A DNA stretch of 64,000 nt, taken from contig JAGGDU010000178.1 of assembly GCA_018457135.1 (NCBI GenBank), positions 1 to 64,000 of the forward strand. Direction: 5' to 3'. Each line of letters opens with the position of its first letter. The stretch's first letter is position 1. Below the pieces are notes generated by a model that saw only the letters and a program-made list of their open reading frames with translations, searched no databases and was not told where the DNA came from. Below are positions 53,870-60,765 of the stretch, piece by piece. Source of the stretch: Trichodesmium erythraeum GBRTRLIN201 (lineage in GTDB: Bacteria; Cyanobacteriota; Cyanobacteriia; Cyanobacteriales; Microcoleaceae). Position numbers and translations under genes: made by a program.

Positions 53870-53900
53870 TCGTTAAAATTTCTGCCAGAGTTTTTGACCA

Positions 53901-53941
53901 GGGAGAATGGGAAATATCAAAGTTCCATAACCCATTCTCCC
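53901..53941 (+). terminator. Perfect 11-bp hairpin terminator after channel gene
   Basis: GGGAGAATGGG (53901-53911) pairs perfectly with CCCATTCTCCC (53931-53941), followed by TCTTT. The symmetrical stem could also serve the convergent GTPase gene. Confidence 0.8.
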
Positions 53942-54240
53942 TCTTTGACTATCAATTACCATCTCTTATAAGTCACGAAAATATTTAATAAATCACCCAT
54001 AATTTTACAGATAACTTATAAGCTATTGTAAGTTTTTCCACTTAAGCAATTTCCACCTCATCTTTTTTTCTACAGTATTGATGAAACAAGGCGGATCTTA
54101 CAACTAATATCATTATGATATAGAAAAGTACCCTACTTAATAGTAGAGATGATACTAGATACTTTTAATTAATTGGAGTTTTGAGCCTTATTGTTTGAAA
54201 GTTTTACTATAATTAGGATTTGCTGAAAAAGTCTCTATTC

Positions 54241-55668
54241 TTATTGATTACTAAAATTTTTGATATTTAATTTAGCTATTAATTCTTCCTTAATACGACC
54301 CATAATCGAATTTTCATCCAAAGATGCCAAAATATTATTAACTACTGTTTTCGGACTTTCCTCTCCCCAAGAAGCACCATTAGCAAGATATGTTTTAGTT
54401 ATTTGCCCAATTCCATAAGATGATACACCTCCTACTGCTGCTTGAGTCGCTGCTACAGACAAATAGGGCCCTAAAGATAACCCACTAGTAACAGGTGCAG
54501 CTAAACCCAATAATCCTTTCACAGAACTTAATCCTAGATTTGCCACTAATTCACTCGCAGTTATACCACCCATACTAATAGCTATCTTTTGTAATAAGTC
54601 TAATGCTCCTCTTTGATTCATTTTTATACCATATAACTTTGATAAAGTCAATATCATAGATACATCAATAATCGCCCCACTGAGAATATCTACCACAGTC
54701 ACAGGGTTGAGAGCGATCGCCATTGCTTTTGTCATCACCCCCTTCCATATAACCCCATCTGCACTTTGAGAGCGAATTTCCATTTTCCGGCGTACTAACT
54801 GTTCATTCACATCATCAGCATAGAGCATACTATTGAGGGCCACCAAAGACTTACCTTCTCCATCTAAAATTTCCAATATTTTCAGCTTTAAGTCTTCTAC
54901 TTGAGGTTCTCCTCGCACCATCTCTACTCTGAGACTACCATCAGAAGCTGGCACCGCTTTAGGAAGTAGTGGAGAAGCAGCAGCCATAACTATTTCATTT
55001 GGTGAGAGTAATTCACGAACTCGCTCATTGCGAATTTTATTATATATAGCTAACCTATCTGTTTCTGGATACTGGTCTATTTTGTTAAACACAAGTAAAA
55101 TTGGTTTACCAGCATCTCTTAAATAAGAAAGAGCTTCATACTCTACTTGGGTAATATCTCCCGCTACAGCAAATAAAAGTAAATCTGCCTGTTTTGCCAC
55201 CTGTCGGGCCATTAATTCCCTAGTTTCTCCGTCTACTTCATCTATACCAGGAGTATCAATTAATTCCACTTGAGATATTCTGTAGGAAGTTAAAGAATTT
55301 GTAGATGATGATTCTATTTCCGTTAAATTATCTCTTCCTAATTGCCATTGTCTAATTTTTGTCGTTTTAGTAACACCATGAATTGGACCAGTTTCAAATA
55401 CTTTTTCTCCTAATAAAGCATTAAGAAGTGAAGACTTACCTCGGCCTACCATGCCAAATACAGCAATATAAACAGAAGCTTTTTCTAACTTTTCTAACAT
55501 TGACTCTAACCCAGAAATTTCAGAGTCTAATCCTGCCCTTTCCTCCGGAGTTAAGTCTAAATTAATTACGATTTCTTTTAAGGCATCTTTCGCATTACAG
55601 ATATTAAGTTCTGCTTGAATATCTGCAAAGCTTGATATTGTTTCGTCTAGTTCTCGGTCGAGATTCAT
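54241..55668 (-). CDS. Dynamin/Era-like GTPase with C-terminal DUF697
   Basis: 475 residues. GTPase motifs are G1 GMVGRGKS (72-79), G3 DTPG (138-141) and G4 NKID (195-198). The C-terminal hydrophobic DUF697 region (about 310-440) has glycine/alanine-rich amphipathic helices (VDVSMILTLSKLYGI, then GITASELVANLGLSSVKG). Such proteins associate with the cytoplasmic membrane, and cyanobacterial and chloroplast homologues are thought to remodel membranes or aid biogenesis. It is complete, with no adjacent functional partner. Confidence 0.9.
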   Translation of the reverse strand: MNLDRELDETISSFADIQAELNICNAKDALKEIVINLDLTPEERAGLDSEISGLESMLEKLEKASVYIAVFGMVGRGKSSLLNALLGEKVFETGPIHGVTKTTKIRQWQLGRDNLTEIESSSTNSLTSYRISQVELIDTPGIDEVDGETRELMARQVAKQADLLLFAVAGDITQVEYEALSYLRDAGKPILLVFNKIDQYPETDRLAIYNKIRNERVRELLSPNEIVMAAASPLLPKAVPASDGSLRVEMVRGEPQVEDLKLKILEILDGEGKSLVALNSMLYADDVNEQLVRRKMEIRSQSADGVIWKGVMTKAMAIALNPVTVVDILSGAIIDVSMILTLSKLYGIKMNQRGALDLLQKIAISMGGITASELVANLGLSSVKGLLGLAAPVTSGLSLGPYLSVAATQAAVGGVSSYGIGQITKTYLANGASWGEESPKTVVNNILASLDENSIMGRIKEELIAKLNIKNFSNQ

Positions 55669-55754
55669 TTTCCGGTATTTCTTACTTATATTTTTAGCTT
55701 GAAAATAAATAACATTACTTTTACTGGAACACAGATCTAAACATGGAATTTTAA

Positions 55755-56185
55755 TTACTCTATCTACAGGAAGAAATCAAAGTAGTAACACAAGCTCATG
55801 CCTTAATACAAGAATGGTTAAGGTAAGTAAGATTAGAACTAAAACTGGAAAAAACCAAAGTTGCCCCGACAAAATAATATATAGGGAAGAAACCAGAATT
55901 TAAAACCTTAATTCAACCATTCTTCAGGATTATAAAAATTCCCGCGCGGAAACTGGCAAAAATATGTGACTTAAATAAATATATCCTTCTCAAGGCATTA
56001 ATCCCTTTAAATCCAGTAATTAAATTATTAGTCAAGTACTACTCAACTATGTTCAGTGATATTACTCGTAAGGGGACGATCGAGATATCAAAAAAGATAT
56101 GGATGTAAGTATAACCATCATTGTAGCTCTCCACCAACGCCTAAAGTGTTGGTTGGGTTGGCCTGAATGTAAGATTCTTTATTAG
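55755..56185 (+). pseudogene. Group II intron reverse transcriptase/maturase remnant
   Basis: A plus frame reads EEIKVVTQAHALIQEWLR, stop, VRLELKLEKTKVAPTK, stop, EFKTLIQPFFRIIK, then ALIPLNPVIKLLVKYYSTMF. After a frameshift, ALHQRLKCWLGWPE follows. The order (EWL..xLELKxxKTK, then thumb/X domain LNPxIKxxxxYYS, then LKxW) is the C-terminal half of a group II intron-encoded protein. The N-terminal RT domain, including YADD, is absent. I could not find an intron domain V hairpin downstream. Confidence 0.75.
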
Positions 56186-56382
56186 TAGAGCTAATGCAAA
56201 ATGTCAATCCTCCCTAAGGCCTGTTCAGTTATTCTGATTTAATTTGGGTAACTATTGATTAGATAGAAGATCCACACCTTTAAACTGGAGGTGAGCTCAA
56301 AAAAAAACTCTAGGCTAAAATTTTTCAAGCCTCATTAGCTTCTAGTCTAAATTTTCTGATTTTGTAGCCATAAATTAACACT

Positions 56383-56564
56383 TTAATAAAATTGTTTTTT
56401 TCGCTGTGCTGCTACTGCCTTTCTCTTACGTTTTTCTTGAGGGGTTTCAAAAAATCGACGTTTTTTTTAACATCTGCAAGAATACCTGCCTTGGAAACTT
56501 GACATTTGAATCGCCGGAGGGCCGACTCTATACCTTCGTTTTCGCCTAGTAACACTTGGGTCAT
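56383..56564 (-). pseudogene. rpsU: 30S ribosomal protein S21, frameshifted at an A8 run
   Basis: From the ATG at 56564 it reads [34 protein letters not shown], then leaves frame. Two bases fewer in the A8 run (minus strand, 56461-56468) restore [20 protein letters not shown] and KKQFY, giving a normal 59-aa S21. As written, the frame ends early at 46 codons. A second oddity is Cys in place of the usual Arg in RRFKR. It could be a dying paralogue, since cyanobacteria often have several rpsU copies, or an assembly error, or a slippage site. Confidence 0.8.
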
Positions 56565-56828
56565 TACTTTTTATTCTATTCTTGAACAAATTAGTTATTA
56601 ATTTTTAATAGTTTACCTATTAGCACTTAGCTTCAGGGACTCTTTTATTATTATCATATAACACCTTCTCAAAAAATAGACAAAGTTGTACGTTTGCTGT
56701 CAATAAAGAATGTTCATTTTTAATATTAGCCTTGATACTTGAAAACTTCAGTGATTTTGTGCTATTCCACTAGAGCACCTTCAAATTTAATTGGGAATTG
56801 GGAGTGTGTCATAAAGGTTTTAAATCTT

Positions 56829-58142
56829 CTAACAAATAAAAGATAAATCAACTTTTCCAAAGTTGGTACTGAATGCAACTTGTAGATTTTCTAATACCTT
56901 TACTAACCACTTAACTGATTCTCTTGTGCTTCTTTCATAATGGTTAAAGAGTATTGCAAATCGCTTTTCTAAGTATGATTTGACTTTATAGCAAACTAAA
57001 ACTATTTTGAGAAGAAGGCTAGTAGTTGCTATTGAACCTATATTAGATATCAGGTTATCAAAGAAAAAGTGCTCTGGTTTTTTAGTGCTTTCTACCACTA
57101 AAAATCCTAATATTTTATTACAGGTTCTCATCACTAAAAAGTCATTTAATTTTTTATTATCATTGTGAGACATAGTATTTTTGAGTTGATTATATAGTTC
57201 TCTCTTGAAATGATCCTTAACATACCTAGAGCCTACATTAAAGGATGTGCTTAAGTATTGGTAGAAGATTTTTTTAAAGCTACTATAGGATTGAGGTTGT
57301 TTGGTATAAATTAGAAAACTTTTGGCATAGTCTTGGTAGCTCTTGCCATTTTCAACTTTACCTACAAATTGTCTAGTAGCTGATAATAATTCCCGGTCAT
57401 TCAAAAGAGTAGGATTTTTAATTTTATTCGTGTTTTCCCAACTAGACTCTGTAAAACTTGAACTTTGAAAATTTGAAGTAGTTGTTACCCCATGTCTAAT
57501 TTGATGAGTTATGTAGTGGGATAAATCTATTTCAAATTTTTTTTGTTTTTGTCGTTGCATCTTCTTGATAGCTTCCTGATGTTCATAGCTATTGTCTAAG
57601 GTAATTAAACAATGTTGATATAAGTAAGGATAACGTGGAATTAAAGTTCTCAAAGGTTCAACTAAAGCACTATCATTGTTTCTATAACTTATTACTTCTT
57701 GGTTTATTACTTCTGCTAAACGTTTTAAACTAAAATACTGTTCACTTTTTGTAAATGCTCGAACCACGTCTAACAGTTTCTGACTACTACGAGAACCGTA
57801 GTGGCGGTGTATTGGTTTATTGTTAATGCTATCAAAAATTTTAATTAAGTCTAGCAACACATCTTTTTTATAGTTATAAGGTTGCTTTCTATTAATAACT
57901 ATATGAAAACAACGATTTAAGAAAAAATTAAATTCTTCTTTATCTTCCAATAATGCGATAATTATTTCTAGTGCTCTAGATACTTTTCTATCAGGATATT
58001 CAGAACAATTAATAAATAAAATTCTAAACCTTTTAATTATCTCTTCTGATGATTCTATATCTATCAACTGGAGAAAATGGTTATAGATATACTGTTGATA
58101 CTGGGATTTTTCTTGTTCATTTCTATCTATAAAGTTTTTCAT
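56829..58142 (-). CDS. Unknown helical protein
   Basis: 437 residues, mostly alpha-helical, rich in Lys, Asn, Tyr and Ser, with no membrane segment or catalytic motif that I recognise. The N-terminal half (about 15-190) resembles a HEAT/ARM-type helical repeat by spacing of hydrophobics. The middle (about 195-240) is basic and Ser/Thr/Gln-rich, and the C-terminal half has a hydrophobic helix (IGSIATTSLLLKIVLVCYKVKSYL). Codon use resembles its neighbours. No partner gene is adjacent. Function is not assigned. Confidence 0.6.
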   Translation of the reverse strand: MKNFIDRNEQEKSQYQQYIYNHFLQLIDIESSEEIIKRFRILFINCSEYPDRKVSRALEIIIALLEDKEEFNFFLNRCFHIVINRKQPYNYKKDVLLDLIKIFDSINNKPIHRHYGSRSSQKLLDVVRAFTKSEQYFSLKRLAEVINQEVISYRNNDSALVEPLRTLIPRYPYLYQHCLITLDNSYEHQEAIKKMQRQKQKKFEIDLSHYITHQIRHGVTTTSNFQSSSFTESSWENTNKIKNPTLLNDRELLSATRQFVGKVENGKSYQDYAKSFLIYTKQPQSYSSFKKIFYQYLSTSFNVGSRYVKDHFKRELYNQLKNTMSHNDNKKLNDFLVMRTCNKILGFLVVESTKKPEHFFFDNLISNIGSIATTSLLLKIVLVCYKVKSYLEKRFAILFNHYERSTRESVKWLVKVLENLQVAFSTNFGKVDLSFIC

Positions 58143-59358
58143 TTGATATATTTCCTAATTGATTTTTTTTAGATCATAGTACCCTGATAAATAATATAAT
58201 TATGCAATTTAATAACTCCAATTTTCTTAAGTATGGCTACACATCATACTTAAGAATGAAATCATATAACCCTAATTCAGTAATCTTATTAAGTAAAGCA
58301 GTGTAGCTTAAGTTTATGAAATTGGTATAATTTCTTTAATCTCATTATATTTAATTGATTTTCTTTTTTAGTCAATGAGACATAAGCACAGCTACCCGGA
58401 AAGGTAAAGGTTCAAGCAAAAAAAATAGAGGCTCACAATTCAATGTGATTTGATGTGATAAATTATAATCAGAGTATAGACAAAAAAGTAACAAGCAGTG
58501 AGTATGTTTTGTAATGGAAGTAGATGTGCATGAGATTATTTGTGTTTATATAAACTCATGAGAGGGAAAAGCTGTTGGGAGTTTTTGTTAGTTCTTACTT
58601 ACTATTTATCCTCTATGTGGAATAGCATATACTAATTTTTGGGCTGCATACCAGTAAAGGACATAGCAGTAGGAAAAAAAACAGAGAAGACTTCTAAAAT
58701 TGAGCGATCCAATAATGCATAAAGACAAAGGATATCCTAGGAATGTGTGAAAAACCAGATCTATCTCTTATCCAAAATTGAAAATTACATTGGTAATATT
58801 TGGTGTTTTCTTTATAATAACTCTAATTAATCATTACTTACTTACTAATATATTTAGGTTTTTATGAAGTTTTAGTAGATTAAAACAATTCCCATAAGCA
58901 GTTAGTACTTAAATTCGTTTATTTAATAGGGACGTTCCACACAACTGACTTAGGTTATAAAAGTTCCCGAAACTGCGGACTTAAAAACTGTACCTCAGTT
59001 GCTTAAGAAACACTATATATAGCTATAAATAATATTAACTTCTAAACTAATACCAATATTATTCATAGGAAGCCAAGATATATCCTAAAAAAAAATTAAT
59101 AGTTTTTAGGAACTTTAGCAAAAATATTAACGTCTAACCTGTCATAATTTTCCTTAAAATTAGGGTAAGCTTCTTTGAACTATTTTCCCCTATCTGAGTT
59201 CACTAGTTATCAGTATATTTACTAACTTTAAAAAAAATTATTATACTTTTGATTTTGCCTTGGTTAATCAGCTAATTCCCAGAAAATAAGTTTAGTTTAA
59301 GAACCACAAGTACTCTTCTATAATTATAATATATCTTTTAGGAGAACTGCCAATAGCT
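58143..59358. other. Long spacer with dispersed repeat
   Basis: About 1.2 kb without a supported gene between the divergent unknown gene and murF. It carries the second copy of the 30-bp repeat (58301-58330). A half of the cyanobacterial GGGACGTTCC palindrome is visible near 58929. Confidence 0.45.
58301..58330 (+). repeat. Dispersed 30-bp repeat, copy 2
   Basis: 29 of 30 bases identical to 23-52, same orientation. Confidence 0.7.
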
Positions 59359-60765
59359 ATGGTTTGTTGCATGACTTTATTTCAACTGACCGAAATATTA
59401 ACTACTACAACACTTACAGGTTTTCATACTCCAGAAAAAACATTAATTACAAGCATAAATACAGATACTCGTAACTTACAGCCTGGTGAAGGATTTTTGG
59501 CATTACGAGGAAATAATTTTGATGGCCATAATTTTGTTGACGAAGCAATCGAAAAGGGAGCTTCTTGTGTGATTGTTGAACAAGAATATACCTTAAATAG
59601 TGAGATTCAACAACTATCAAATAATATACCTATATTACAAGTAGAAAATACTTTAAAAGCTTACCAAAAAATTGCTCGTTGGTGGCGAGATAGATTTGAT
59701 ATTCCTGTTATTTCGGTCACAGGTTCAGTAGGTAAAACAACTACTAAAGAATTAATTGCTGAAGTTTTAGCAACTCAGGGTAAAGTCATGAAAACTGAAG
59801 CTAATTATAACAATGAAATAGGTGTAGCTAAAACTCTACTACAACTTTCTAATGAAGAGAATTATGCAGTAGTAGAAATGGCAATGCGGGGACCAGGAGA
59901 AATAGCAGAGTTAACACATATTGCTAACCCGACAATTGGTTTAATTACTAATGTCGGTACTGCTCATATTGGTCGTTTGGGTTCTGTTGAAGCCATTGCT
60001 GAAGCTAAGTGTGAATTGTTAAGAGAAATGTCTGATAGTAGTATTGCTATTCTGAATTATGATAATCAACGGTTGATAGAAACTGCGGCTAAAGTTTGGT
60101 CTGGAGAAACTTTTACTTATGGTTTAGAAGGTGGAAATTTACAAGGAAAATTAATTGATTCTCAAACGATAAATGTTGAGGGTGTGGATTTACCTTTACC
60201 TTTACCTGGTAGTCATAATGCTTCTAATTATTTGGCAGCATTAGCAGTCTTAAAAGTGCTTCATGGAAAAAATATTCCCGCAAAAACTCTGTTTCAATCT
60301 TTGACTAATAACTTATTCGTTCAATTACCAGGAAGTAGGGCAAGAAAATATGATTTAAAGAATGATATTGTAATTTTAGATGAAAGTTATAATGCTGGAT
60401 TAGAGTCAATGATAGCTGCTCTCAATTTGTTAGCTGAAACTCCTGGTAAACGACATATTGCTGTATTGGGAACTATGAAAGAATTGGGAAACAAATCAAT
60501 TTTATTTCATCAACAAGTTGGTAATGTTGTCAAAAATTTGAATATTGATGGTTTATTTATTTTAGCTGATTTTGAGGAAGCAAAAGCAATGGCTACAGGT
60601 GCTGCTAGTTTGCAATTTATCAAGGTAGAAAATATCACTGCTGATAATGCTCATCATAATTTAGCCAAATATTTACAGGAGTTTTTACAGCCTGGTGATC
60701 GGGTTCTTTTTAAGGCTTCTCATTCTGTAGAGTTAAATAAAGTAGTCGAACTTTTAATTAATTAG
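59359..60765 (+). CDS. murF: UDP-N-acetylmuramoyl-tripeptide--D-alanyl-D-alanine ligase
   Basis: Adds D-Ala-D-Ala to UDP-MurNAc-tripeptide in the last cytosolic step of peptidoglycan precursor synthesis. 468 residues, complete. The N-terminal substrate domain has SINTDTRNLQPGEGFLALRG. The ATP site is VISVTGSVGKTTTKELI (GSVGKTT 122-128), the central domain has EANYNNEIGVAKTLL and EMAMRGPGEIAELTHIANP, and the C-terminal domain has ILDESYNAGLESM and LGTMKELG. The ATG at 59359 has GGAGAAC about 12 nt upstream; an ATG at 59371 is possible. It is monocistronic and followed by a strong hairpin. Confidence 0.97.
   Translation: MVCCMTLFQLTEILTTTTLTGFHTPEKTLITSINTDTRNLQPGEGFLALRGNNFDGHNFVDEAIEKGASCVIVEQEYTLNSEIQQLSNNIPILQVENTLKAYQKIARWWRDRFDIPVISVTGSVGKTTTKELIAEVLATQGKVMKTEANYNNEIGVAKTLLQLSNEENYAVVEMAMRGPGEIAELTHIANPTIGLITNVGTAHIGRLGSVEAIAEAKCELLREMSDSSIAILNYDNQRLIETAAKVWSGETFTYGLEGGNLQGKLIDSQTINVEGVDLPLPLPGSHNASNYLAALAVLKVLHGKNIPAKTLFQSLTNNLFVQLPGSRARKYDLKNDIVILDESYNAGLESMIAALNLLAETPGKRHIAVLGTMKELGNKSILFHQQVGNVVKNLNIDGLFILADFEEAKAMATGAASLQFIKVENITADNAHHNLAKYLQEFLQPGDRVLFKASHSVELNKVVELLIN

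Follow-up and report, generated by a model that had tools for sequence, protein, structure and literature searches.

A second bS21 gene (rpsU), frameshifted at an A8 run and probably a pseudogene, in Trichodesmium erythraeum GBRTRLIN201, at a locus of probable repeated gene loss

In this study, a second (paralogous) gene for the ribosomal protein bS21, designated here rpsU-B, was analysed in a 64,000-nt stretch of the Trichodesmium erythraeum GBRTRLIN201 genome (contig JAGGDU010000178.1, positions 1 to 64,000; the window). This copy has very probably been inactivated by a net gain of two nucleotides in a run of A residues, and most likely represents a dispensable gene that was repeatedly lost in Trichodesmium and Okeania. 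The lesion itself, an intact paralogue, intact orthologues and differing states of the gene at one locus were all observed. As expected of a pseudogene, the gene is broken where another Trichodesmium genome (G001) has an intact orthologue in the corresponding place, and an intact paralogue resides in the genome of the window. The B protein would no longer be functional in this strain, and the event appears to be recent.

The A8 run falls within the Lys-Lys codons of rpsU-B and shifts the final 25 codons of the gene into another frame (Table 1). The gene could be aligned end to end with the G001 orthologue, the only length difference being the run, which is in accordance with an earlier note, made from the sequence alone, that described an rpsU broken by a 2-nt change in an A8 run. 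Judged from the alignment, the change is a net +2 nt relative to the relatives, the single mutational steps not being readable from it. The product of the ATG frame matched the Pfam Ribosomal_S21 profile (PF01165) with 48.9 bits, above the curated cut-off of 27, and the downstream piece in the second frame obtained 24.5 bits on profile positions 31-54, just below this cut-off. The whole profile is thus not covered by one uninterrupted frame, and the break is located at the A8 run. If translated at all, the ATG frame would give a protein of 50 residues that is incorrect over its C-terminal third.

Table 1. Features of the rpsU-B locus (coordinates refer to the window)
Feature	Position	Strand	Basis or remark
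rpsU-B, second (paralogous) bS21 gene, frameshifted, probable pseudogene	56383..56564	-	sequence, alignment, Pfam
Frame from ATG (begins at 56564): 50 aa, first 34 residues S21-like, then out-of-frame Lys/Arg-rich tail and TAG (56414-56412)	56412..56564	-	
A8 run (T8 on + strand), 2 nt longer than the matching stretch of the intact G001 orthologue	56461..56468	-	
Second frame with normal S21 C-terminal part, 27 residues (56466-56386) and stop TAA (56385-56383)	56383..56466	-	26/27 identical to G001
Codon 21, TGT (Cys); Arg in other S21 stretches compared	56502..56504	-	
Upstream neighbour, 437-aa protein, no Pfam match at E 0.01; locus marker in Trichodesmium and Okeania	56829..58142	-	
Downstream neighbour, GTPase with DUF697; marker of the other side of the locus	54241..55668	-	

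At the nucleotide level, rpsU-B is 94.4% identical to the G001 gene (170/180 aligned bases), and the 5' and 3' flanks share 84% and 76.5% identity, respectively. Four of 32 codons differ before the break and 3 of 26 after it (stop counted). These include three amino-acid changes: R21C, R25K and R53Q, the last being the only one in the 25 codons that follow the break, which may mean that decay has barely begun or that the frame is still read. Comparison with a third Trichodesmium genome (G003) and with Okeania placed all three, together with one silent change, on the side of the T. erythraeum GBRTRLIN201 gene, and only silent changes fall on the G001 side. Three changes against none, in 59 codons only, suggest relaxed constraint on the former. 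The Arg-to-Cys change in the RRFKR segment, also pointed out in the earlier note, is real (Arg21 to Cys). Among 136 distinct stretches from 132 loci, the residue after the motif [LIM]RRF[KR] is Arg in 133 (not each of them checked by eye), and the three others are the window and two that are not S21, judging by the residues after the motif. Cys21 of rpsU-B is therefore unique among the S21 stretches sampled.

That the A run was wrongly sequenced or assembled, rpsU-B being in fact intact, is unlikely. Homopolymers are a classical site of error, the lesion was seen in one genome only and the codons downstream of the break are nearly unchanged, all of which speak for such an error, but length errors of 2 nt are rarer than those of 1 nt, the change to Cys21 does not depend on the run and the genome (G000; 7.2 Mb in 241 contigs) is rated 99.97% complete and 0.05% contaminated. 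Moreover, the 38 open ORFs of 120 aa or more in the window (40 minus two overlapping antisense ORFs) contain 12 A/T runs that are 8 or 9 nt long, so a run of at least 8 is not always accompanied by a broken frame in this assembly, a weak argument given that these ORFs were picked as open. It is plausible that the rpsU site easily changes in length in AT-rich genomes, since it is rich in Lys codons and its longest A run is 7 or 8 in 4 of the 136 stretches (window included), one of which (L050) has an in-frame A8.

A search for other rpsU copies, as had been proposed earlier, returned one intact copy elsewhere in the same genome. The two S21 matches of G000 are rpsU-B and this A-type rpsU (G000:C211:29917-30078; 74 bits, no stop). 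The two copies belong to different paralogue types: the A copy reads GIFPDMKKHRHFE, and the corresponding stretch of the G001 B orthologue differs. It is the A copy that may cover the function of rpsU-B, which would render the B copy dispensable and its loss nearly neutral. Among the 59 genomes of the relatives search (G000 included), one S21 match was found in 24, at least two in 33 (in some of these, fragments were counted) and none in two (55% and 85% complete). With 24 of the 59 genomes having a single match, one S21 copy seems to be enough in many relatives. According to passages of a study on bS21 (PMC9976891), paralogue number varies even among close bacteria, and Cyanobacteria are named among those with extra copies. 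rpsU-B resembles the paralogues treated in these passages in encoding a small basic protein of the PF01165 family, with extra copies that differ in number from one close relative to another, and differs from them in being frameshifted and in having lost Arg21.

The B orthologue of G001 was used as the query against a genome collection (one genome each for 84,980 species), from which the best 80 matches were listed; among these, Trichodesmium sp. MAG_R02 came first (100%; apparently G001 itself) and Okeania next. The two neighbours of rpsU-B also flank the B gene in G001 (L073), in the Okeania MAGs G027 and G030 (L074 and L075) and in Okeania hirsuta G023 (L115). Seven genomes of the genus Trichodesmium were compared, i.e. 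that of the window (G000) and six others (G001-G006). In G001 the gene is intact (59 aa), and in G003 it is open, one codon shorter in the SALRR segment, with the GTPase gene on a different contig. In G004, the 3' part alone is left. No B gene was found between the flanking genes of G002, G005 and G006, where both flanks are on one contig, their matched parts being separated by 1,374, 475 and 237 bases, respectively. The G006 genome is 81% complete, yet its gap between the flanks is covered, whereas in that of G002 an N separates the two copies of a repeated segment, which makes an assembly join possible and the absence less certain than in G005 and G006.

A complete B copy is thus missing from 4 of the 6 other Trichodesmium genomes. 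The A8 frameshift occurs in none of the six: two carry the site without A8 and four are without the site. The earlier note had read rpsU as a decaying paralogue that was intact until recently, and had named conservation of the frameshift, with translated peptides, in relatives as an argument against decay. Its reading agrees with the distribution described above, with the intact second copy and with the high identity to G001.

The G003 gene (G003:C1053, L037:2995-3171) lacks one codon of the otherwise conserved SALRR segment and also shows a Gly7 to Asn change; these alterations are possibly an early step of decay.

Outside Trichodesmium, the B gene is open and encodes 59 aa in three Okeania genomes (G012, G027 and G030), and in O. 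hirsuta it is split in its first codons by an insertion of about 180 bp (G023:C54, L045:2153-2336). This insertion (176 bases between the matched pieces) has 20-nt inverted ends that are 90% complementary, and looks like a small non-autonomous mobile element. No B copy was found in G018 of the Okeania group, where the region upstream of the GTPase gene differs and the contig ends; this case was not counted as a deletion. A tree of the two flanking proteins from 12 genomes (the 437-aa flank in 10 of them, the GTPase of G006 being partial) paired G002 with G003, G005 with G006 and G000 with G001 (FastTree supports of 0.933, 0.999 and 0.844; IQ-TREE supports of 89, 100 and 78, respectively). Taken at face value, this distribution would correspond to about four losses within the genus, in addition to the split copy of O. 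hirsuta, bearing in mind that the tree is built on two genes with moderate supports and that the absence in G002 is less certain.

It is very unlikely that rpsU-B is still expressed through slippage of RNA polymerase in the A8 run, a mechanism reported for Buchnera and Blochmannia by which a minor part of the transcripts would be in the S21 frame. The earlier note had considered such in-frame products conceivable, and no specific support for them was found. The codons after the break are conserved and, according to two reports, single-base insertions in transcription rise exponentially with run length in Escherichia coli and Buchnera (PMC5574713), and Blochmannia possesses otherwise intact genes with poly-A tract frameshifts that are maybe rescued by slippage (PMC3017870). 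rpsU-B shares with these genes an A-run frameshift in an otherwise recognisable gene (PMC3017870). There, however, many tracts comprise 9 or more residues, some frameshifts are shared by several species and rescue has been either proposed or demonstrated. The Trichodesmium run, in contrast, is private to one of seven genomes, an intact paralogue is present, and the frameshifted run is not kept across the relatives, four of the six having no complete copy. With A8 in 0 of 6 other genomes of the genus, nothing points to selection keeping the run, and the intact A copy makes rescue unnecessary; considering this copy and the losses among relatives, neither a need for rescue nor selection for it is apparent.

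The sequence A_AAA_AAC belongs to a known class of slippery sites and is present in phase in rpsU-B. Ribosomal -1 frameshifting at this heptamer would lead to a full-length S21-like protein, but the heptamer is absent from the G001, G003 and Okeania orthologues, the product would be one residue longer than the orthologues and two RNA stretches downstream of the run fold no better than shuffled sequences (z-scores of -0.64 and -0.11; this fold test bears on ribosomal frameshifting only). Such an origin of a complete protein is hardly credible. Programmed -1 frameshifting was rejected, since the heptamer is missing in orthologues and no stimulatory fold was found relative to shuffles. A broader form of the idea, in which A8 is a low-level recoding site and the few transcripts or ribosomes that yield full-length S21-B give rise, in this species, to a mixed population of ribosomes with a scarce alternative bS21, is highly improbable.

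It is also extremely doubtful that the 50-aa product is a working, shortened bS21. Although it exceeds the Pfam cut-off and many residues of its out-of-frame tail are Lys or Arg, this tail occurs in no other S21 of this analysis and residue 21 is Cys instead of the Arg of other S21 stretches sampled. In addition, passages of PMC9976891 describe Flavobacterium ribosomes without bS21 or its C-terminal region as behaving unlike controls, and state that truncated bS21 was largely missing from the ribosomes of the truncation strain. Inactivation of a dispensable second copy remains the preferred explanation. Automatic annotation may list rpsU-B as a normal short S21, because the 50-aa product passes the Pfam threshold.

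The Trichodesmium genome is reported to be 40% non-coding (PMC4649490), and in a genome of such low coding density rpsU-B would be one more decaying gene with nothing particular about it. No report of the rpsU-B lesion was found among the open-access papers searched on Trichodesmium. Variation of bS21 paralogue number among close relatives is already in print (in the passages cited from PMC9976891), and the case of rpsU-B is most likely ordinary gene decay. Its significance is modest: it provides a small, clear example of a bS21 paralogue that was lost repeatedly among closely related marine cyanobacteria, one locus being found in six states (intact, open but shortened, frameshifted, truncated, insertion-split and missing). 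Should translation be tuned under some conditions by the B-type bS21, the species that keep it and those that lost it would constitute a natural comparison.

The surroundings of rpsU-B were also inspected. No structured RNA was detected at Rfam gathering scores within positions 53900-59400, and no tRNA or tmRNA was identified by ARAGORN in the 64-kb window. The counts of promoter-like (4; shuffle mean 4.6) and terminator-like patterns (0; shuffle mean 0.6) around the gene were uninformative. A link between rpsU and genes of RNA-binding proteins (rbpA-rpsU) is known; by a crude motif test, an RRM-like motif was found near the S21 match in 3 of 80 loci. The upstream neighbour ranges from 435 to 441 aa across the loci that share both flanking genes, a Pfam match being absent for the version of the window. 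Its gene is present in all seven Trichodesmium genomes searched, the window protein sharing 74-78% identity with the other six, and stands beside rpsU-B in three Okeania loci, and some genomes contain extra, partly broken copies of it.
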